This document shows, in pieces, positions 2,531 to 50,499 of a DNA stretch of 64,000 nucleotides. The translations under genes were made by a program, and so were the position numbers. The stretch is from the NCBI GenBank assembly GCA_911728435.2, contig OU452211.1, positions 8,476,428 to 8,540,427 on the forward strand, written 5' to 3'. The notes under the pieces were generated by a model. The model had not been told where the DNA came from. It searched no databases and saw nothing but the letters and a program-made list of their open reading frames with translations. This DNA comes from Apoderus coryli. Lineage: Eukaryota > Arthropoda > Insecta > Coleoptera > Attelabidae. Each line of letters starts with the position of its first letter. The first letter of the stretch is position 1.

Positions 2531-2968
2531 TTCACTTTCCAGGACAGTGCGTCCGTTTTTTTTTATTCGATTATGTTGCTAAATTTTTTAATTAACTTAC
2601 ATAGCAGATCTGTATCCGAGGTCATAAAAATTGAAGACCGATTTTTTGCTTTTTCAAGGTCTTTGGTCATGGTTCACTTAAAAGGGGCACAAGGGCAAAC
2701 AAATAAAAATAAGGTTGACAAAGACAAGATATAAACAAAAATACAAAACACAACCTACAAAGTTTCTTCTTCTTATTGTTGGCCTCTACAATGCGTTGTT
2801 GCCAAGTTGTGTTTGGCTGATAGCTATTAGAAGGATAAATTTCGTTTAATAAACAGATATAAATGTATCAATACCTTTACCAGAGAGATAAAAGTTATCC
2901 TCCTGGTAGCTATTAGAGGGTTTATCAGCACATTATAAACATGCCCTAAAGTACTTATGAAGAATTTA
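2531..2968. other. no gene seen
   Basis: AT-rich sequence between the Harbinger remnant and mariner copy 1. The phrase 'TAGCTATTAGA' occurs twice (about 2820 and 2907), suggesting a small duplication. Confidence 0.4.
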
Positions 2969-4140
2969 CGAGGGTTGCCTTTTATATTTCGGGATTTGGC
3001 AACCCTGGTGTTGAAATCAGGCAACGGACAGCTCCATCGTAAAGTTGGACATTTTTGAGGTTATACGTACTCAAAATGTTTTGACATGAGCGCTATTTGT
3101 GTTGTTTACAGTAACTTAAAAGATTCATCTCGACCCAAAAATGGGATTAAATCATGAACATTTTCGTACGATTATTTTTTACAACTTTCAACCTGGATTA
3201 ACTCAGCAACAGTGCATGGATGAACTTAATTTATATTTTGGCGAATTTCGTGAAAGTCGTCCAAAACCAGTTGTTGTTCCGAAAACCATTGATGCTGTGC
3301 GCGACCTGATATTGCAAGATCCTCATATGACCTATCAAGTGATTGAGACAATCTTAGGAATTAGTGGGACCAGCATACATTCAATATTGTATAAACATTT
3401 GACTGTCAAAAAAATTGGTTCGCGTTGGATCCCACACAATATGTCAATCGCTCAAAAAAAGGCTCGTCTCGATTGGCCGAAAGAAATGCTTAAAGAATAC
3501 GATCGCGGTGCTTCGAAACACATCTATGACATCGTAAACAGCAGTCGACTGTATGGGTGTTTCAATATAAGCCAAATCCAACAACAGTTGTTCGCGCACG
3601 AAGCACTTCCAAGCAAATGGTCGCCTATTTATTCGGAAAAACTGGACATGTCGCAACCGTACCACTAGAACAACGCAGAACAGTCAATTCTGAGTGGTAC
3701 ACAACCATTTGTTTGCCAGTTGTCTTCCAAATAATCAGGAAAACCAACCTCCGAAGACGGATCACTCTCCACCACGACAATGCGAGCTCTCACACATCGG
3801 CTCAAACAACTTTTTGAGCACCAAAAACATCGATTTGATGAGTCATCCGGCGTATAGTCCTGACTTGGCACCGAATGACTTCTTTTTATTCCCGTACGTA
3901 AAAAACAAACTGAGAGGTCAACGTTTGTCGACACCTGAAGAAGCGGTTGCTGCATTAAGAATGCATGTTTTGGAGATACCTCAATCAGAGTGGCAAAAGT
4001 GCTCTGACAATTGCTTCAAATGCATGCAAAAGTGTATAGATATTCATGGGGAATATTTATAAAAAAAAAACAATACAGTGATTTTCGATGATTAATATTT
4101 GTTTTTGTTCTCTAATCCCGAAATATAAAGGGAGTTGACC
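2969..4140 (+). mobile_element. mariner element, copy 1 of 5
   Basis: The left terminal repeat begins after TA with CGAGGGTTGCCTTTTATATT, and the right end carries the inverted form (AATCCCGAAATATAAAGGGA). The same termini occur at four other places in the window. Copy 1 keeps both ends, but the right end is diverged in its last bases and the exact boundary near 4140 is uncertain. TA target duplication is as expected for mariner. Confidence 0.85.
3141..4062 (+). pseudogene. mariner transposase, inactivated (copy 1)
   Basis: The frame begins 'MGLNHEHFRTIIFYNF' and continues through a helix-turn-helix region ('ILGISGTSIHSILYKHL'). Compared with the other copies, a block of the N-terminal domain is missing after 'ELNLYFGEF', and the block holding the first catalytic Asp (TGDESW) is deleted. 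Frames then change at about 3557 and 3694. 'HHDNASSHTS' and 'YSPDLAPNDFFLF' preserve the second and third Asp. Family members in this window show 34 residues between these, the mariner DD34D spacing. No active protein can come from this copy. Confidence 0.85.
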
Positions 4141-7740: not shown

Positions 7741-7783
7741 ATACAGGGTGTCTCACGATGAACCGCGCCCATCGATTTCGATT

Positions 7784-9579
7784 ATGAGGGTTGCCTTTTA
7801 TATTCGGGATTTGGCAACCCTGGTGTCGCAATCGGGCAACTGAGAGCTTTATCGTAAAGTTGGACATTTTTGAGGTTATACGTGCTCAGAACGTTTTGAT
7901 TTAAAAGATTCATCTCGGCCCAAAAATGGAATTAAATCGTGCGATTATTTTTTACAACTTTCGACGTGGATTAACTCAACAACATGTGCATGGATGACCT
8001 GTTTGGCGATGAAGTTCCATCAAGGACGAGTGTTTATCGATGGTATGGTGAATGCAATCGTGGTCGTAGTTCACTCCAAGACGAATTTCGTGAAGGTCGT
8101 CCAAAATCAGTTGTTGTTCCGAAAACCATGTGATGTTGTGCGCGTACTGATATTGCAAGATGGTCGTGTGACCTATTTTCTCAGGGGTAAGTTGTCTTCT
8201 AGTATTTACGTTATTAGGAGGCTCAGACATTGTCTGAGTCAGCAAGCTCTGAGAACTGTTTATTTCTCACTGTTCCATTCTCATATTTCTTATGGAGTGA
8301 GTCTCTGGGGTAACTCATCATCGGCTATTCAAATATTTAGAGTGCAAAAAAAGGTGGTTCGCATTCTGGCAAATGCTGGATATCTGGAGCATTGCAAGCC
8401 CATTTTCAAATCTCTCAATATAATGCCTCTCCCGTCTTTATATATATATTATCAACTGCTTGAGATTCACAGATGTAAGCCCGATTTGTGTATTAACTCA
8501 ACTTGTCATGAGTACGGTACGAGATCTGCGGACTTGGTACGGGCTCGGCGATGGAGATTGACTAAGTCTGCAAAGAATTCCCTACAGATTCGGTTGTATA
8601 ATGTACTTCCTCGTAGGGTCCGGGAGTACAGTTCAGAAATGTTCAAAAGAACTATAAAATCATACTTGCTCAAGCATGCTTTTTATTCTGTGGAAGAATA
8701 TTCCCAGGAAGTTGTACATTTTAGCAATTAGTCGCTTTTAATTTGTTTGTACCTATGTTACTTACACTTTCATGTTTTTTGTTGTAGATATAGTTTTTGT
8801 ATTTTGACGTACTGCAATTGTTTTGTACAAAACGTAGTTAATAAAGATTATTATTATTATTATTATCAAGAGATTGAGACAACCTTAGGCATTAGTGCGA
8901 CCAGCATACATTCGATATTGCATAAACATTTGACTGTCAAAAAAATTTGTTCGCGTTGGATCCCTCACAATTTGTCAATCGCTCAAAAAAAGGTTCGAAA
9001 CACGTCTATGACATCGTGACAGGTGATGAATCGTGGATTTATGCGTATGAGCCCGAAAGTAAACAGCTATCGATTGTATGGGTGTTTCAAGATGAGCCAA
9101 ATCCAACAAAAGTTGTTCGCGCACGAAACACTTCCAAGCAAATGGTCGCCTGTTTTTTCGGAAAAACTGGACATGTCGCAACCGTAACACTAGAACAACG
9201 CAGAGCAGTCAATTGTGAGTGGTACACAATCATTTGCTTCCCAGTTGTCTTCCAAGAAATCAGGAAAACCAACCGCCGAAGACGGATCACTCTTCACCAC
9301 GACAATGCGAGCTCTCACACATCGGCTCAAACAACTGCATTTTTGAGCACCCAAAACATCGATTTGATGAGTCATCCGCCGTATAGTCCTGACTTGGCAC
9401 CGAATGACTTCTTTTTATTCCTGTACGTAAAAAACAAACGTTTTTCGACACCTGAAGAAGCGGTTGCTGCATTCAGAATGCATGATTTGGAGATACCTCA
9501 CTCAGAGTGGCAAAAGTGTATAGATCTTCATGGGGAATATTTTGAAAAACAATAAAGTGATATTCGATACCCCTCGTAT
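7784..9579 (+). mobile_element. mariner element, copy 2, interrupted by a non-LTR fragment
   Basis: The left terminus is TA-TGAGGGTTGCCTTTTATATT and the right terminus is a shortened CCCTCGTA. The transposase frame opens at about 7926 ('MELNRAIIFYNFRRGLTQQ'), is broken by a non-LTR insertion at 8177-8866, and resumes at 8867. After the break, 'VTGDESWIYAYEPE' (first Asp), 'LHHDNASSHTSAQT' (second) and 'YSPDLAPNDFFLF' (third) are all in one frame from 8947 to 9555, with small deletions elsewhere. It is the only copy keeping all three catalytic Asp motifs in one continuous frame. Confidence 0.85.
8177..8866 (+). mobile_element. non-LTR retrotransposon 3' end, 5' truncated, inside mariner copy 2
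   Basis: Translation gives 'LRTVYFSLFHSHISYGVSLW', the thumb/C-terminal region of Jockey/CR1-like RT, then a basic tail ending 'TIKSYLLKHAFYSVEEYS'. An AT-rich 3' UTR ends in AATAAAGATTATTATTATT. The mariner sequence 'GTGACCTAT' stops at 8176 and resumes with 'CAAGAGATTGAG' at 8867, so the insert boundaries are clear. It is a 5'-truncated insertion, typical of target-primed reverse transcription. No long target-site duplication is obvious. Confidence 0.85.
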
Positions 9580-13943: not shown

Positions 13944-15187
13944 CAAGGGTTGCCTTTGATATTTCGACATTGGAGAACAAAAACAAATATTAATCATCGA
14001 AAATCACTTTATTGTTTTTCAAAATATTCCCCATGAATATCTATACACTTTTGCATGCGTTTGAACCAATTGTCGAAGCACTTTTGCCACTCTGATTGAG
14101 GTATCTCCAAAACATTCATTCTGAATGCAGCAACCGCTTCTTCAAGTGTCGAAAAACGTTGACCTCTCAGTTTGTTTTTTACGTACCGGAATAAAAAGAA
14201 GTCATTCGGTGCCAAGTCAGGACTATACGGCGGTTGACTCATCAAATCGATGTTTTGGGTGCTCAAAAATGCAGTTGTTTGAGCCGATGTGTTAGAGCTC
14301 GCATTGTCGTGGTGAAGAGTGATCCGTCTTCGGCGGTTGGTTTTCCTGATTTCTTGGAAGACAACTGGTAAACAAATAGTTGTGTACCACTCAAAATTGA
14401 CTGTTCTGCGTTGTTCTAGTGGTACGGTTGCGACATGTCCAGTTTCTCTGGAAAAACTAACGACCATTTGCTTGGAAGTGCTTCGTGCGCGAACAACTTT
14501 TGTTGGATTTGGCTCTTCTTGAAACATCCATACAGTCGACTGCTGTTTACTTTCGGGTAAATCACCTGTCACGATGTCATAGACGTGCTTCGAAGCACCG
14601 CGATCGTATTTTTTGAGCATTTCTTTCGACGAATCGACATGAGCCTTTTTTTGAGCGATTGACAAATTGTGTGGGATCCAACGCGAACAAATTTTTTTGT
14701 TAGTCAAATGTTTATGCAATATTGAATGTATGCTGGTCCCACTAATGCCTAAGGTTCTCTCAATCTCTCGATAGGTCACATGACGGTCTTGCAATATCAG
14801 TTCGCGCACAGCATCAATGGTTTTCGGAACAACAACTGATTTTGGACGACTTTCACTAAATTCGTCTTGGAGTGAACTATGACCACGATTGAATTCACCA
14901 TACCATCGATAAACACTGGTCCTTGACCAAAAATTGAATTAAGTTGCTGAGTTAATCCACGTCGAAAGTTGTAAAAAATAATCGCACGAAAATGTTCACG
15001 ATTTAATTCCATTTTTGGGCCGAGATGAATCTTTTAAGTTATTGTAAACAACACAAATAGCGCTCGTATGTCAAAACGTTCTGAGTACGTATAACCTCAA
15101 AAATGTCCAACTTTACGATAGAGCTGTCAGTTGCCAGATTGCAACACCAGGGATGCCAAATCCCGAAATATAAAAGGCAACCCCTGT
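13944..15187 (-). mobile_element. mariner element, copy 3 (reverse orientation)
   Basis: Both terminal repeats are present: CAAGGGTTGCCTTTGATATT at the left and the complement near 15150-15187. At about 1.24 kb it is close to the usual mariner length of 1.2-1.3 kb. Confidence 0.85.
14009..15012 (-). pseudogene. mariner transposase, inactivated (copy 3)
   Basis: The N-terminal piece (15012-14797) begins 'MELNREHFRAIIFYNFRRGL' but shifts frame within the DNA-binding domain. The longer piece (14809-14009, 266 codons) contains the second helix-turn-helix region and 'DIVTGD' with the first Asp, followed by a deletion that removes the usual ESWIYAYE. 'LHHDNASSNTSAQT' (second Asp) and 'YSPDLAPNDFFLF' (third Asp, DD34D) follow, then the normal C-terminus 'IDIHGEYFEKQ'. 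It is the longest single frame of the family here but is inactive. Confidence 0.85.
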
Positions 15188-15189
15188 GA

Positions 15190-16115
15190 AAACAATTATG
15201 CCAATTTTTCGTTTTTGGGTTGAATCTATCCCTGTTCTAACAACCCTAGTTGAAGAGAAACATTTTCGATAAAATAATTTAAAATTCCAAATTCACATTA
15301 ACGTGGGTTCAAAAATGCTTTGTATGCAGGGTGATAAGGGTGATAAAAGCACCATTCCGATGGCTGATGGTAGTTTTATTATTTTTTTTTCAGGAACGTT
15401 GACCTATTGCGCAAAAAATATTAATATTACTCCGACTCTCACATAAAAAATATCTACAATCATTTTTGTAATAAACTGAATACAGTACCATGGTGTAAGT
15501 AGTAGTAGGTAACCATATAATATTTTATTCAAATTGCCAGCGAGCGAGCGACCGAACGAACGACCGAACCAAGCAAGCAACCAGTCAGCCAACATTTAAA
15601 ATTTTCTGGGTAATTAATTTCCAACACTGTTTCCGCTCAGTGTCAACAAATTTGTTTTAATACTTTTCACACGCAACGATTAAATTTGCTCTTATATAAA
15701 GAGAAATTTATAGGTAAACTCAGTTGAACAAACGCAAATATTTATTTGGCATTGGAACTTATAGAGCGAACCAATTTTAGAAAGACATTTACATGTTATT
15801 TTTATTTGGAACATCTTCAGTTATGTGAAAAATTAAGAATTTTTTAGTATACAGTGACAACCAAAAGTAAGACATAAATTTTATAAAATAAAAAATATGT
15901 ACGCCACTGTCGTTTTTGTGTTTTTATTAATAATAATTACGTAACAACAAGAACAGTTTAAAATTTCAGCTAAACTAAAATAGTTTATTTAATTCTCACT
16001 TTGAAGGTCATTAACTCCTTATACTCACTAGACAAAAATTTTATATGACGAACTAAAATTCTTTTGTCGTGTTCTAAGCTCCTTCATTTACGACTTGACC
16101 TTTCCGGACACCCTG
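15190..16115. other. no gene seen; degenerate tetranucleotide run
   Basis: A run of CGAG/CGAA/CAAG units lies at about 15537-15590 (for example CGAGCGAGCGACCGAACGAA). The rest is AT-rich with nothing recognised. Confidence 0.4.

Positions 16116-17777: not shown

Positions 17778-17780
<3 letters not shown>
16319..17780. other. no gene seen; one non-LTR 3' tail
   Basis: At 17050-17130 an AT-rich stretch ends 'TTGCAAATAAACTGATTATT' plus ATT units, like the tails at 6.1 and 8.86 kb. Nothing else is recognised. Confidence 0.4.

Positions 17781-17823
<43 letters not shown>
17781..17823. repeat. (TA)n microsatellite, left flank of the PLE palindrome
   Basis: About 21 TA units run directly into the left arm of the Penelope palindrome. 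A matching (TA)n lies on the right side. Confidence 0.9.
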
Positions 17824-17826
<3 letters not shown>

Positions 17827-17869
17827 GGTATAGGCTAATGTGGTGTAGTGTAAAAAAAACTCTTTTTTA

Positions 17870-17916
17870 CTATGCCAAGCTTTCGAAATTTTTTAATTTC
17901 TTCTTCAGGGCTGCAA
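17870..17916 (-). ncRNA. hammerhead-ribozyme-like core near the PLE 3' end (left arm)
   Basis: This is the mirror copy of the right-arm core, with CTGAAGA at 17902-17908 on the minus strand. It sits about 55 bases from the end of the left arm, as in the right arm. Confidence 0.6.
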
Positions 17917-18550
17917 ATTACAAGAACAACGGTTTATGTTTTATATAAAAAGTACAATTCGCAAGTAATATTACCTTTGGTATGTAAAGGTGAGTTACAT
18001 TAATGTTAAAACTGACATATTTTTTTATATTTTATTGTATATAGTTGTATATAATTGTAGGAAAACAACCAAAATAATGTTTAAAATGTGAGAATTAATA
18101 ATATTATTAAGCAGAAAACGTGGTGCCTATTCCAAGATCTAATCTACAATTTGATCAAGAGAACGATTTGCAAAAACTTATAGTGATAGGTATCAAATAT
18201 AAAAAGTATAAACGGCGAGCGTTTCATTTATTTCATAGATGGTAACATGGGCGGACCTATAAATAGTTCTCGCTAATTTTGAAGGAAAAGCTGTCACTCT
18301 TTTCCCCGAATAACCGCGAGATCAATGAGGTGGATATATTAAAATATAATATATTGTGTATTTCTTTGTTCGGCAATCCTAATGTTCCATCAATCATTTC
18401 TCTGATTTATATAATTAGTCTCACTAAAATAAGATTTCCTTTTTGTGAGCAGACTCCAAAACGGCGTTGGGAACTGTCACTTCCCCCACCATCCCGAAGC
18501 CCCCACTTCTAAACAACGTGAACGGAGACTAATTTGTTTTTTCGTAATGA

Positions 18551-18794
18551 GAAAACAGGCTGTCACCACTGTTTTCAGTTGTCCTGATAAGTGCAACGCA
18601 GGCTGCCACTACTGCGTTACAAAAACATTGTAATTAATGGATTGATATCTATGAGCCTTCTGACAAAATTTGACTAATCAACGTCTATGTAGACGTTAAT
18701 CCATCAACTGTCGTCAAACAAATCGGGAAACAGGCTCTCACCACTGCTAACGAACTGTGTTAAAACAGAAAACAGGCTCTCACCACTGTTTTCC
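18551..18794 (-). ncRNA. the same four hairpins in the left PLE arm
   Basis: This is the mirror copy of the right-arm hairpin set, in the 3' region of the left (minus-strand) PLE. H4 is at 18551-18576, H3 around 18593-18621, H2 around 18727-18748 and H1 near 18769-18794. Confidence 0.75.
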
Positions 18795-18817
18795 TATTCA
18801 ATTGGTACTGACAAGGG

Positions 18818-20233
18818 CTAAATTGATCCTTGTGAGTCATCCGGCTCAGAATTGCGTGAATCACCCAATTGGCAAATATATGTGTACATCGCGCTAGTCG
18901 TGTCTATATCTCTTCGTTTGTTTAAACAGTTTTCGTCTCTATTAGTCTCAAACATCTCCAAGAACAGTCTCTTTGTTAAGTTAGGTTCAATGTGTAAGGC
19001 TTTTGTGTTTTCGTAACTTGGAAGGTGTCCAGTGTCCAGATGATGTTCTGACAGGGCACATGATCTCTTATTGAGACGACAATCACTTTTATGTGATGTT
19101 AACCTGTCTCTTAACACTCGAGACGTCTGTCCAATATAAGTTAGATTACAGGACTTGCAGGGAATGCTATATACCACATTCGAAGTCCTCATTGCATCAT
19201 CTCTATCTTTAAGCTTTGAGAAAATATTGCCAACTGTTTTTGTATATTTCTGTGCTACTTTTATGGAATCAAATTTGCTAAAAACTTTTGCTATTTTTTT
19301 GTGATACATCCTTTATATACGGAATAGCATAATAAAAGGTTCTTGTTGCCTCACTGTTGTTGTGTGTATTGGTGTGCTCATGTTCGTTATTGACTGAAGA
19401 TCTATTGGTACTAGTGTTGTAAATTAGTTTTCTTAACAGCTGTTTGGGGTACGAATTTTCAATAAGTACATCGAACAAGATTTTTTTATTTTTTTCCAAT
19501 AAACTGTGGTGACAAAGGTTTTCTATTCGTTTTTTTAATCCCAAGACGGAATTGATTTTTATCTTCTCAGTGTGGAAAGAATTATAATTTATATATCTTC
19601 CAGAATTGGTGGGTTTTACATACCAATCAACGAAAATTTTATTGTCAGGCATTCTAATTAACTTAGTGTCTAGGAAAGGTACACTTCTATCCTTCTCCTC
19701 CTCCATAGTGAACTGAATGTATTCATTGTAGTTGTTGAACACTTCTAGAATTACTTCTTTTTTGTTGTGTGGTATAGCACAAATTAGATCATCAACATAT
19801 TTCTTCAGAAAGGGCAAATCAAAATCCAGCAGTGGTAGGACACAGTCCAATAAGTCATCCATGACATATTGGGCTAAAATCGGTGATAAAGTAGCACCCA
19901 TAGGTGTACCTAAGATTTGTTTATAAAAATAGTTCTCAAAAGAAAAGTATGTGGAGTCGAAAATGAACTCTATTATATTCAAAAATTCTTTTTTGGGGAT
20001 GTTGGTAATCTCTGAAATTAGGTTCCACCTTTTCTCAACGCTACGAAAGACCAGATTTTTGGGGATATTACTATACAAAGAAACCACATCAAGGCTCACC
20101 AACACATAGTCTTGAGGTAGCTGTTTTTCATTAATATAACTTGCAAATTTAAAGGAATCTGTTGTGAAATATGGGTTGTCCTTATTGTAGGCATTGGTCA
20201 AAATGTCCGTAATAAATTTTGATAACTTGCTGG
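18818..20233 (-). pseudogene. Penelope-like RT plus GIY-YIG endonuclease, left copy (truncated, frameshifted)
   Basis: From its 5' end the frame holds 'VSLDVVSLYSNIP' (RT motif A), 'GTPMGATLSPILAQYVMDD' (motif B region) and 'FLKKYVDDLICAIP' (motif C, YVDD). The C-terminus has the GIY-YIG endonuclease: 'VVYSIPCKSCNLTYIGQTSR', then 'SEHHLDTGH'. An extra A at about 19292 shifts the frame between RT and endonuclease. The open frame continues upstream to 20378, but those first 48 or so codons are antisense sequence of the right arm, an artefact of the palindrome. The true N-terminus is absent. Confidence 0.9.
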
Positions 20234-20235
20234 TA

Positions 20236-21291
20236 GCCCAATATGTCATGGATGACTTATTGGACTGTGTCCTACCACTGCTGGATTTTGATTTGCCCTT
20301 TCTGAAGAAATATGTTGATGATCTAATTTGTGCTATACCACACAACAAAAAAGAAGTAATTCTAGAAGTGTTCAACAACTACAATGAATACATTCAGTTC
20401 ACTATGGAGGAGGAGAAGGATAGAAGTGTACCTTTCCTAGACACTAAGTTAATTAGAATGCCTGACAATAAAATTTTCGTTGATTGGTATGTAAAACCCA
20501 CCAATTCTGGAAGATATATAAATTATAATTCTTTCCACACTGAGAAGATAAAAATCAATTCCGTCTTGGGATTAAAAAAACGAATAGAAAACCTTTGTCA
20601 CCACAGTTTATTGGAAAAAAATAAAAAAATCTTGTTCGATGTACTTATTGAAAATTCGTACCCCAAACAGCTGTTAAGAAAACTAATTTACAACACTAGT
20701 ACCAATAGATCTTCAGTCAATAACGAACATGAGCACACCAATACACACAACAACAGTGAGGCAACAAGAACCTTTTATTATGCTATTCCGTATATAAAGG
20801 ATGTATCACAAAAAATAGCAAAAGTTTTTAGCAAATTTGATTCCATAAAAGTAGCACAGAAATATACAAAAACAGTTGGCAATATTTTCTCAAAGCTTAA
20901 AGATAGAGATGATGCAATGAGGACTTCGAATGTGGTATATAGCATTCCCTGCAAGTCCTGTAATCTAACTTATATTGGACAGACGTCTCGAGTGTTAAGA
21001 GACAGGTTAACATCACATAAAAGTGATTGTCGTCTCAATAAGAGATCATGTGCCCTGTCAGAACATCATCTGGACACTGGACACCTTCCAAGTTACGAAA
21101 ACACAAAAGCCTTACACATTGAACCTAACTTAACAAAGAGACTGTTCTTGGAGATGTTTGAGACTAATAGAGACGAAAACTGTTTAAACAAACGAAGAGA
21201 TATAGACACGACTAGCGCGATGTACACATATATTTGCCAATTGGGTGATTCACGCAATTCTGAGCCGGATGACTCACAAGGATCAATTTAG
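20236..21291 (+). CDS. Penelope-like RT (C-terminal part) plus GIY-YIG endonuclease, right copy
   Basis: The frame is open from the arm junction, beginning 'AQYVMDDLLDCVLP', with YVDD at about codon 28, then the thumb region and an intact GIY-YIG domain ('TYIGQTSRVLRDRL'; 'CALSEHHLDTGH'), and a stop at 21291. The open frame technically starts at an ATG at 20194, but those 14 codons are antisense PLE sequence, so any product would be chimeric. RT motifs A and B are missing, so polymerase activity is not expected. The endonuclease half is undamaged. It lacks the left copy's frameshift. Confidence 0.88.
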   Translation, partial: AQYVMDDLLDCVLPLLDFDLPFLKKYVDDLICAIPHNKKEVILEVFNNYNEYIQFTMEEEKDRSVPFLDTKLIRMPDNKIFVDWYVKPTNSGRYINYNSFHTEKIKINSVLGLKKRIENLCHHSLLEKNKKILFDVLIENSYPKQLLRKLIYNTSTNRSSVNNEHEHTNTHNNSEATRTFYYAIPYIKDVSQKIAKVFSKFDSIKVAQKYTKTVGNIFSKLKDRDDAMRTSNVVYSIPCKSCNLTYIGQTSRVLRDRLTSHKSDCRLNKRSCALSEHHLDTGHLPSYENTKALHIEPNLTKRLFLEMFETNRDENCLNKRRDIDTTSAMYTYICQLGDSRNSEPDDSQGSI

Positions 21292-21315
21292 CCCTTGTCA
21301 GTACCAATTGAATAG

Positions 21316-21558
21316 GAAAACAGTGGTGAGAGCCTGTTTTCTGTTTTAACACAGTTCGTTAGCAGTGGTGAGAGCCTGTTTCCCGATTTGTTTGACGACA
21401 GTTGATGGATTAACGTCTACATAGACGTTGATTAGTCAAATTTTGTCAGAAGGCTCATAGATATCAATCCATTAATTACAATGTTTTTGTAACGCAGTAG
21501 TGGCAGCCTGCGTTGCACTTATCAGGACAACTGAAAACAGTGGTGACAGCCTGTTTTC
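21316..21558 (+). ncRNA. four covarying hairpins in the PLE 3' region (right arm)
   Basis: H1 21316-21341: stem GAAAACAG/CTGTTTTC, loop TGGTGAGAGC. H2 21361-21380: stem AGCAG/CTGTT with one G-T pair, same loop. H3 21489-21516: stem GTAACGCAG/CTGCGTTGC with one T-G pair, loop TAGTGGCAGC. H4 21533-21558: stem GAAAACAG/CTGTTTTC, loop TGGTGACAGC. Stem bases change on both sides while pairing is kept, and the 10-nt loop is conserved. H1-H2 and H3-H4 are each 44-45 nt apart. A fifth hairpin, ACGTCTA-CA-TAGACGT, lies near 21413-21428. They lie just after the ORF stop. Function is unknown. Confidence 0.75.
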
Positions 21559-22194
21559 TCATTACGAAAAAACAAATTAGTCTCCGTTCACGTTGTTTAG
21601 AAGTGGGGGCTTCGGGATGGTGGGGGAAGTGACAGTTCCCAACGCCGTTTTGGAGTCTGCTCACAAAAAGGAAATCTTATTTTAGTGAGACTAATTATAT
21701 AAATCAGAGAAAGGATTGATGGAACATTAGGATTGCCGAACAAAGAAATACACAATATATTATATTTTAATATATCCACCTCATTGATCTCGCGGTTATT
21801 CGGGGAAAAGAGTGACAGCTTTTCCTTCAAAATTAGCGAGAACTATTTATAGGTCCGCCCATGTTACCATCTATGAAATAAATGAAACGCTCGCCGTTTA
21901 TACTTTTTATATTTGATACCTATCACTATAAGTTTTTGCAAATCGTTCTCTTGATCAAATTGTAGATTAGATCTTGGAATAGGCACCACGTTTTCTGCTT
22001 AATAATATTATTAATTCTCACATTTTAAACATTATTTTGGTTGTTTTCCTACAATTATATACAACTATATACAATAAAATATAAAAAAATATGTCAGTTT
22101 TAACATTAATGTAACTCACCTTTACATACCAAAGGTAATATTACTTGCGAATTGTACTTTTTATATAAAACATAAACCGTTGTTCTTGTAATTT

Positions 22195-22245
22195 GCAGCC
22201 CTGAAGAAGAAATTAAAAAATTTCGAAAGCTTGGCATAGTAAAAA
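22195..22245 (+). ncRNA. hammerhead-ribozyme-like core near the PLE 3' end (right arm)
   Basis: CTGAAGA at 22201-22207 fits the core CTGANGA. Then come one extra A, stem II GAAATT/AATTTC with loop AAAA (22209-22224), GAAA at 22225-22228, and GCTT at 22229-22232. The last can form a two-pair, loop-less stem III (A-T, G-C) followed by cleavage-site T. GCC before and GGC after the core can start stem I. PLEs are known to carry minimal type I hammerheads of this form. The extra base before stem II is non-standard and activity is unproven. Confidence 0.6.
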
Positions 22246-22334
22246 AGAGTTTTTTTTACACTACACCACATTAGCCTATACCCCAATATATTGAACATAT
22301 TTGATATTCAAACAGTAGGCTACGAAAATACTGA

Positions 22335-22336
<2 letters not shown>

Positions 22337-22372
<36 letters not shown>
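22337..22372. repeat. (TA)n microsatellite, right flank of the PLE palindrome
   Basis: About 17 TA units lie 40 bases beyond the right arm and directly abut the tRNA-like fold-back element. Confidence 0.9.
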
Positions 22373-22375
<3 letters not shown>

Positions 22376-22626
22376 CGATATACAAAGAAGAATGAAATAA
22401 ACTAACTTGTACGAATTAAAAAATCTCCTGACACAAGCTGGATTTAAACCAACATCTCCCAATTGCCGGACAGGTGTTTTAACCATTCATGTGCCACGAT
22501 AGTTTAATTGGTTAAAACAGCTGACCGGCAATTGGGAGATGTGGGTTCAAATCCAGCTTATGTCACGAGATTTTTTTGATTCGTACAAGTTGGTTTATTT
22601 AATTTTTCTTTGTATATCGGTGATAT
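22371..22626. mobile_element. fold-back element with a tRNA-like core
   Basis: Arms 22371-22485 and 22509-22626 are reverse complements over about 115 bases with a 23-nt loop. Ends read ATCACCGATATACAAAG and its complement. The inner part of each arm resembles a tRNA. On the plus strand TAGTTTAATTGGTTAAAAC gives a D-arm-like GTTT/AAAC stem and box A, and GGTTCAAATCC is close to a box B. On the minus strand the T-arm GTTGG-TTTAAAT-CCAGC pairs perfectly. Acceptor and anticodon stems do not pair well. It is best read as two tRNA-derived (SINE-like) units head to head. Confidence 0.6.
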
Positions 22627-40739: not shown

Positions 40740-41218
40740 CGAGGGTTGCCTTTTATATTTCAGGATTAAAGAACAAACACAAATATTAATCATCGACAAT
40801 CACTTTTCAAAATATTCCCCATGAAGATCTATACAATTTTGCCTGCGTTTGAACCAATTGGCGAAGCACTTTTGCCACTCTGCTTGAGGTATCTCCAAAA
40901 CATGCATTTTGAATGCAGCAACCGCTTCTTCAGTTGTCGAAAAACGTTGACCTCAGTCTGTTTTTTATGTAAGAAGTCATTCAGTGCCAAGTCAGGACTA
41001 TACGGCGGATGACTCATCAAATCGATGTTTTGGGTGCTCAAAAATGCAGTTGTTTGAGCCGATGTGTGAGAGCTCGCATTGTCGTGGTGAAGAGTGATCC
41101 GTCTACGGCAGTTGGTTTTCCTGATTTCTTGGAAGACAACTGACAATCAAATGGTTGTGCATCACTCAGAATTGACTGTTCTGCGATGTTCTAGTAGTGG
41201 TAGGGTTGCGACATGTCT
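40740..41218 (-). mobile_element. mariner element, copy 4 (truncated, reverse orientation)
   Basis: The 3' terminal repeat (CGAGGGTTGCCTTTTATATT) is intact at 40740, with TA before it. Coding covers only the C-terminal half: 'LHHDNASSHTSAQT' (second Asp) and 'YSPDLALND' (third Asp), then a deletion replacing the FFLF segment. Homology stops at about 41218, so the N-terminal half and 5' terminus are gone. Confidence 0.85.
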
Positions 41219-49178: not shown

Positions 49179-49251
49179 AAAGAGAGGATTTTTACGTTAC
49201 GTTTAGTCCCGAAATACTCAAAACAATGAGCTATAAGGATTGATATTATTA

Positions 49252-50494
49252 CGAGGGTTGCCTTTCATATTTCGGGATTTGGCAACCCTGGTGTTGCAAT
49301 CTGGCAGCTGACAGCTCTATCGTAAAGTTCGACATTTTTGAGGTTATACGTACTCAGAACGTTTTCACATACGAGCGCTATTTGTGTTGATTACAGTAAC
49401 TTAAAAGATTCATCTCGGCCCAAAAATGGAATTAAATCGTGAACATTTTCGTGCGATTATTTTTTCCAACTTTCGACGTGGATGAACTCAGCAACAGTGC
49501 AACTTAATTCAATTTTTGGCGATGAAGCTCCATCAAGAACCAGTGTTTATCGATGGTATGGTGAATTCAATCGTGGTCGTAGTTCACTGCAAGACGAATT
49601 TCGTGTAGTTCGTCCAAAATCAGTTGTTGTTCCGAAAACCATTGATGCTGTGCGCGAACTGATATTGCAAGATCGTCATGTGACCTATCAAGAGATTGGG
49701 ACAACCTTACCAGCAGCCTAACCAGCATACAGTCAATATTGCATAAACATTTGACTGTCAAAAAAATTTGTTCGCGTTGGATCCTACACAATTTGTCAAT
49801 TGCTCAAAAAAGGCTCGTGTCGATTGGTCGAAAGAAATGCTCAAAAAGTACGATCGCGGTGCTTCGAAATACGTCTATGACATCGTGACAGGTGATGAAT
49901 CGTGGATTTACGCGTTGAGCCCGAAAGTAAACAGCAGTTGACTGTATGGACGTTTCAAGATGAGCCAAATCCAACAAAAGTTGTTCGCTCACGAAGCACT
50001 TCCAAGCAAATGGTCACCTGTTTTTTCGGAAAAACTGGACATATCGCTACCGTACCACTAGAACAACGCAGAACAGTCAATTCTGAGTGGTACACAACCA
50101 TTTGTTTGCCAGTTGTCTTCCAAGAAATCAGGAAAACCAACTGCCGAAGACGGATCACTCTTCACCACGACAATGCGAGCTCTCACACATCGGTTCAAAC
50201 ATCTGCATTTTTGAGAACCCAAAACATCGATTTGATGAGTCATCCGCCGTATAGTCTTCACTTGGCACCGAATGACTTCTTTTATTCCCGTACGTAAAAA
50301 ACAAACTGAGAGGTCAACGTTTTTCGACACCTGAAGAAGCGGTTGCTGCATTCAGAATAGATGTTTTGGAGATACCTCACTCAGAGTGGCAAAAGTGCTT
50401 CGACAATTGGTTCAAACGCATGCAAAAGTGTATAGATCTTCATGGGGAATATTTTGAAAAACAAACAAACAAAGTGATTGTCGATGATTAATAT
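49252..50494 (+). mobile_element. mariner element, copy 5
   Basis: The left terminus CGAGGGTTGCCTTTCATATT follows TA. Homology ends at about 50494, inside the 3' non-coding part, so the right terminal repeat is missing. Confidence 0.85.
49425..50460 (+). pseudogene. mariner transposase, inactivated (copy 5)
   Basis: The N-terminal region keeps the most complete DNA-binding domain of the family here: 'LNSIFGDEAPSRTSVYRWYG' and 'EFNRGRSSLQDEF'. The frame breaks after 'YQEIGTTL' and again near the first Asp ('TGDESWIYA'). From 49902 the frame runs 'PNPTKVVRSRSTSKQM' to 'HHDNASSHTSVQT' (second Asp) and 'SLHLAPNDFF', where D of SPD is replaced by H. A deletion within FFLF shifts the end. Inactive. 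Confidence 0.85.
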
Positions 50495-50499
50495 TATAT

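Follow-up and report, generated by a model that had tools for sequence, protein, structure and literature searches.

Penelope-like elements (PLEs) share an ancestor with telomerase RTs. In stringent LINEs, including ZfL2-1, ZfL2-2, and UnaL2, the 3' tail contains a stem-loop, which is present once per LINE and close to the 3' end. Two other loops that invite comparison are the CAGUGN loop of the iron-responsive element and the GNRA-like protein-binding loop of lambda boxB. In the LINE 3'-tail hairpin, the loop is recognized specifically and the stem only generally, and the element's protein needs the hairpin for recognition; the ZfL2-2 protein needs its own loop plus a formed stem (accessible sections of PMC4176376). 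For PLEs, the RNA features given in the accessible sections of PMC11167929 are a hammerhead ribozyme at the junction of the pseudo-LTR (pLTR) and the ORF and an AC-rich stem-loop at the RT start, and an optional 3' “tail” of 30-40 nt is a known PLE signature. The Anolis element is the first PLE active in vitro. Its minimal RNA was mapped, the first 172 nt of the ORF sufficed for insertion in vitro, and the place of a binding motif was only hypothesized (same sections of PMC11167929). Pseudo-LTRs, inverted or partial-tandem copies, and palindromes at the pLTR ends are described in PMC3846280, and the accessible part of that paper contains neither “hairpin” nor “stem”. The hairpin motif described here bears on how PLE proteins may recognize their own RNA.

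The window, a stretch of 64,000 nt from the genome of the beetle Apoderus coryli, contains a PLE that spans 17818-22340. It consists of two head-to-head, 5'-truncated copies with their 3' ends pointing outward. The right copy (20234..21291, plus strand) has a 5'-truncated ORF for the RT end and the GIY-YIG endonuclease, which stops at 21291. The left copy (17818..20233, minus strand) lies head to head with it, and the two arms are identical at 2057 of 2059 aligned positions. The left copy differs from the right by one base in length, which divides its coding sequence into two frames, one for the RT (19278-20378) and one for GIY-YIG (18818-19312). Pfam matches were found in the left copy for RVT_1 (5.7e-09) and GIY-YIG (4.6e-05); the right-copy piece matched GIY-YIG (0.00014) and had no match to RVT_1. 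With its RT and C-terminal GIY-YIG, the element is a Penelope-like element (EN+), and the pseudo-LTR and the inverted or partial-tandem copies of that group are found here as well. Its protein has 144 homologues at E<=0.001, and the named ones among the 120 listed are mostly from beetles. Both ends of the pair adjoin (TA)n microsatellites (17780-17823 and 22338-22372), in line with the AT-rich targets that PLEs are reported to prefer.

A sequence-only reading of this DNA had reported four hairpins, H1-H4, straight after the ORF stop, with all loops fitting TRGTGRSAGC. All four are present with the stems described, and H1 begins 23 nt past the stop. On the plus strand, H1 (GGAAAACAG-TGGTGAGAGC-CTGTTTTCT, 21315..21342) has 9 bp, H2 (AGCAG-TGGTGAGAGC-CTGTT, 21361..21380) has 5 bp and is weak alone, H3 (TGTAACGCAG-TAGTGGCAGC-CTGCGTTGCA, 21488..21517) has 10 bp, and H4 (GAAAACAG-TGGTGACAGC-CTGTTTTC, 21533..21558) has 8 bp. 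The spacing within the two pairs, given earlier as 44-45 nt, was measured as 42 and 43 nt from start to start. The set of four proved to be incomplete in that H5, H6, and the left-arm set had been missed; in total, six hairpins downstream of the stop have the heptaloop GUGRSAG. H5 (21603..21664, plus strand) is a long, G.U-rich hairpin with a 20-bp stem, and its apical part is GGGAA-GTGACAG-TTCCC (21624-21640). H6 (GGGGAAAAG-AGTGACAG-CTTTTCCTT, 21802..21827, plus strand) has an outer stem at about 21788-21841. The same six hairpins occur in the left inverted arm (18282..18794, minus strand), where the first positions of the core loops, read on that strand, are 18783, 18741, 18609, 18566, 18480, and 18297. 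Between the two pairs lies a long, stable hairpin (21391..21450, plus strand, z -4.85) with the loop ACAU and without the shared loop. A seventh hairpin at about 21601-21613 (GAA-GTGGGGG-CTTC) was rejected, as it competes with the better H5 fold. Measured from the tail-less 3' end (22291), H1 starts 976 nt before and H6 ends 464 nt before.

When CAGTRGTGRSAGCCTG was searched with up to two mismatches, eight matches were found in the window, four per arm and all exact, where the chance mean is 0.05. In the 3' region of each arm, all six GTGRSAG words lie in the apical loop of a stem with 5 bp or more, and of the 21 other GTGRSAG words in the window one lies in such a stem (Fisher 2.4e-5 for 6/6 against 1/21). 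A motif-free scan of five-of-seven loop words over 21292-22291 found GTG..AG in six hairpins, and 1000 shuffles gave four at most. The covariance model built from H1-H4 recovered H6 in the window (E 0.021) and nothing else new, and it scored H5 weakly (E 0.94). Folded alone and compared with shuffles, H1, H3, and H4 have z of -2.04, -2.24, and -1.42, and H2 folds no better than shuffles (z +0.21). At the Rfam gathering score, no family matched over the hairpins. A weak match to a lncRNA model, SOX2OT_exon2, that overlaps H6 at E<=5-10 reached 18.4 bits against 45 and was taken as chance.

All of the evidence on conservation of the motif comes from this one genome (428 Mb, 129 contigs). A protein search of the genome gave at least 116 PLE matches, 55-100% identical and many with long open frames, and the 3' sides of 48 of these were examined. 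From their UTRs and their identity with the protein of the window, PLEs were sorted into 14 ad hoc families, each represented by one copy. The compared region runs from the ORF stop to the tail motif, and two representatives in which no tail was found (M59 and N55) were cut at 900 nt. By blastn of the window UTR against 20 loci (L045-L064), the final 100 nt or so match in families B, C, and D, and family B alone matches at the hairpin as well. GUGRSAG occurs 38 times on the sense strand of the 14 representatives. Of these 38, 28 are in the apical loop of a stem with 5 bp or more, and they are spread over 12 of the 14 families. In a permuted-heptamer control, only 24 of 167 lie in such stems (Fisher 1.9e-12). 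For the non-A families, 22 of 32 are in stems, where the local backgrounds are 6-12%. The hairpin pattern first led to families B-D; families E-N were found by protein search alone, and they have 17 of 23 in stems, in nine of ten families. On the antisense strand the motif occurs once and not in a stem (0/1), and coding pieces from 15 families (six of ~90-110 residues, four under 35) have none. A motif-free scan of the 13 non-A families placed GTGNNAG first, with 20 hairpins in 11 families, counting stems of 6 bp or longer. Over 60 shuffles, the top word among those containing at least two G/C reached five families, and GTGNNAG reached two at most. The representatives of these 12 families have one to six GUGRSAG hairpins per element, and the loop is unchanged between families that are just 55-67% identical in protein.

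The motif is weak or missing in some PLEs. Among the 14 families the exceptions are D and J58. Family D has only weak versions, two hairpins with 4 bp beside the loop. In family J58 the motif is absent in all three copies examined (L097, L106, and L114, taken as one family by identity). The J58 representative groups with the carriers E and G (95/98) in a protein tree of 115 columns, which holds 11 of 15 families, the protein piece of the other four being too short, and in which one of eight inner branches is well supported. Judged from these sequences, the absence in J58 looks like a loss. Because J58 is without the motif and yet is grouped with carriers, the motif is not strictly essential. 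It is also absent in two copies of the 52% family (L066) and in L090, which has a short 3' region.

A search of the whole genome with the hairpin pattern at two mismatches stayed near background, with 540 matches against 448 for the reversed control; among the matches listed, the signal lies in the exact ones. One exact match without a PLE ORF (L056) is probably due to chance. Searches of viral_contigs, genome_contigs, and plasmids gave no DNA relatives outside this genome. A 16-nt pattern had 36 matches among viral contigs, but these look like chance, and none has more than three further flanking pairs. The read-through C-termini of 120 proteins contained no hairpin traces and one unrelated pattern match.

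The stems change and pairing is kept. Compensating changes had been proposed for H1-H4, and among these hairpins three of nine pairs do change on both sides. The 28 hairpins of the family comparison have 26 distinct inner arms, 38 of their 220 stem pairs are G.U, and each of the six positions nearest the loop has five or six pair types. Selection for stems of at least 5 bp makes the listed pairing complete by construction, and the unselected test is the 28 of 38. In an alignment of the CAG/CTG-type hairpins of families A-D (seven rows), 88.9% of cells pair, nine cells are changed on both sides, and the covariation score is 0.439, values that were each reached in 0 of 500 shuffles. Slid versions of the alignment are at most 55% paired. 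Two of the five covariation measures are unremarkable (double-change pairs, 23 of 500 shuffles; further pair types, 140 of 500), and the three loop-adjacent pairs are invariant. The proposal of a selected structure withstood the comparison that could have undone it, in that related PLEs keep the loop and their changed stems still pair. The GUGRSAG hairpins thus constitute an RNA motif of the sense strand that is under selection and whose stems covary, as seen in 12 of 14 family representatives of one genome.

It had been left open whether the structure forms in RNA or in ssDNA. RNA is favored over ssDNA because of the many G.U pairs and the better folds of the sense strand. The region 21292-21840 has a z of -4.26 in sense and -2.28 in antisense, and for the long H5 hairpin these values are -4.08 and -0.44. 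By comparison, 150-nt windows of the coding part that start at 20300-21100 have sense z of -1.72 to +1.06. The long hairpin in families A, B (two copies), C, and D (L057) has sense z of -2.5 to -3.7 and antisense z of -1.5 to +0.65; in the second D copy (L049) z is only -1.64. The short hairpins in an 83-nt context have z of -1.6 to +0.5, and in the minimum-energy fold of that context H1, H4, and the short hairpins of B and D are not formed. A protein-binding DNA palindrome was also considered and is disfavored by the G.U pairs and the strand bias.

As in ZfL2-1 and ZfL2-2, the PLE hairpins are in the 3' UTR and consist of a conserved loop on a stem whose pairing is conserved. Unlike the LINE 3'-tail stem-loop, the hairpins in the window are not at the very 3' end and lie several hundred nt from it. 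The LINE loop is element-specific, whereas PLEs have one loop across families, on one to six hairpins. The hairpins are separate from the PLE features in the accessible sections of PMC11167929 and PMC3846280. The sequence-only reading knew of no described PLE like this one, and none was found in the literature searched, of which few subscription papers were part. Likeness to the iron-responsive element is limited to CAGUGG in H1, H2, and H4; there is no matching stem or C bulge here, other families are without the CAG, and there is no Rfam match. A GNR(NN)A fold, which would resemble lambda boxB and other GNRA-like loops, is conceivable for the consensus GUG(RS)A. However, the PLE loop has seven nt and an invariant final G.

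The loop is a putative protein-binding element. The reader proposed here, with a probability of about 0.47, is the PLE's own RT/GIY-YIG protein. In 12 of 14 family representatives, the non-coding region of the PLE, its 3' UTR and pseudo-LTR, displays GUG(A/G)(C/G)AG heptaloops on one to six hairpins whose stem sequence is largely free as long as pairing is kept. The RT/GIY-YIG protein could pick and hold its own RNA through the loop, for template selection and RNP assembly, and several hairpin copies could give multivalent binding. The loop would be read specifically and the stem generally, as in the 3'-tail stem-loops of stringent LINEs, and loop-specific binding by a retroelement protein has a precedent (accessible sections of PMC4176376). 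The invariant G-U-G..A could possibly form a GNRA-like fold with two flipped-out bases, which is a guess from the consensus. Since the minimal RNA of the Anolis PLE lies in the ORF start, the UTR hairpins may have their role outside insertion itself, either ahead of it or alongside it, in RNP assembly or cis preference. That minimal RNA counts against reading by the PLE protein, and so do the single loop of divergent PLE families where LINE loops are element-specific, the lack of the motif in J58 and the 52% family, the weak folds in 83-nt context and of the L049 long hairpin, and the two unremarkable covariation measures. A broader proposal, held more tentatively, is that the multivalent GUGRSAG array may be a recognition code common to many PLE families, for which the PLE protein would have a conserved surface that binds RNA. 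If true, a shared PLE code would contrast with the element-specific loops of the two LINEs tested. The motif is short and defined, with up to six per element on stems that turn over, and it can be made as an oligonucleotide. It could also help to locate the UTRs of PLEs in the genomes of other insects, along with non-autonomous partners that may exist there.

Binding by a host RNA-binding protein is somewhat unlikely, and it stays a serious rival because the loop is common to divergent families and absent in J58. The hairpins would then be candidate sites that the PLE exploits (stability, export, germline localization) or suffers (silencing). The same loop in families with divergent proteins, the variable copy number and position of the hairpins, and the lack of the motif in one family that groups with carriers are consistent with a host protein. 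However, only one of the 21 other GTGRSAG words in the window is in a stem of at least 5 bp, so that on this scale nothing points to a use beyond the PLE.

A role in translation or processing is improbable, and it bears on how the UTR is arranged. The right copy extends to about 22340, and the left copy ends at 17818, which corresponds to 22291 in the right arm. An optional 3' tail, the start of the next ORF (22291..22340, plus strand), is thus present in the right arm, and the left arm ends before it. The 3' ends of the family-A copies examined cluster at query positions 674-691 and 716-736, with modes 33-39 nt apart, for loci that partly overlap and with ends in (AT)n blurred. Alternative 3' ends with an optional tail of 30-40 nt are therefore present here as in known PLEs. 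The L115 locus has a long open frame that is immediately preceded by the UTR, from UTR position 322 onward, with the UTR reading straight into the frame, and so the PLE UTR is also a pseudo-LTR. Hairpins in such a UTR, upstream of the next ORF copy, could control that copy's translation or processing. The UTR upstream of the L115 frame (positions 322-1000) includes H5 and H6 together with the hammerhead-like motif. In L062, the ORF follows a complete UTR copy in which H1-H4 are present, and in the UTRs displayed the ORF-start motif comes after T-rich sequence that ends in AG. All of this would suit such control. Against it, the upstream copy in L115 is without H1-H4.

The hammerhead-like motif (CCTGAAGA - stem II - CGAAAGC, 22200..22230, plus strand) is near the 3' end. 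Its core, CCTGANGA - stem II - CGAAAGCTTGGCATA, sits at the pLTR/ORF junction in the window, L060, L059, L057, and other families, and 12 of the 14 representatives have the pattern, family A being counted by its own sequence. Between families, stem II shows covariation; an additional A is present at stem II, stem I is not clear, and the Rfam hammerhead models gave no match to the motif. The T-rich stretch ending in AG lies just before the ORF-start motif at 22180-22199 in the window and is also found in L060, L059, L057, and L058. By its letters it resembles the 3' splice site of a pLTR intron.

Pairing of the loops with other RNA parts, by kissing or at long range, is very improbable. The H4 loop has a 9-nt complement, TGTCACCAC, in the ORF (20596-20604), but this was reached by 2 of 300 shuffled loops with six loops tested and is probably due to chance. 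The other five loops are without an unusual complement, and by inspection the loop cannot pair with itself. An origin by recent duplication in place, or by chance, with no selection is highly improbable. Although H1 and H4 are 93% identical, the 12-nt flanks of H1-H4 pairs are only 17-42% identical, the same loop stands on different stems in 12 of 14 families, and the single recent duplication that the sequence-only reading had named as a counter-explanation is insufficient because similarity among H1-H4 stops at the stem ends and the stems differ across families.

Several other repeats are found near the PLE copies or elsewhere in the window. In six of 20 loci (L046, L047, L048, L054, L058, and L061), tRNA-like repeats lie beside the PLE copy; by ARAGORN these are tRNA-Ala GGC-like units of ~327 bp and tRNA-Ser GGA-like units of ~365 bp. 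In the window, a tRNA-like inverted pair at 22429-22565 is about 90 bp past the PLE end. One half of this pair is above the Rfam gathering score, and ARAGORN finds none in it. The window also contains diverged copies of related transposons in both orientations (2966-4099, 7781-9518, 14009-15192, 40804-41198, and 49249-50495), which, from their translations, we take to be mariner-type.
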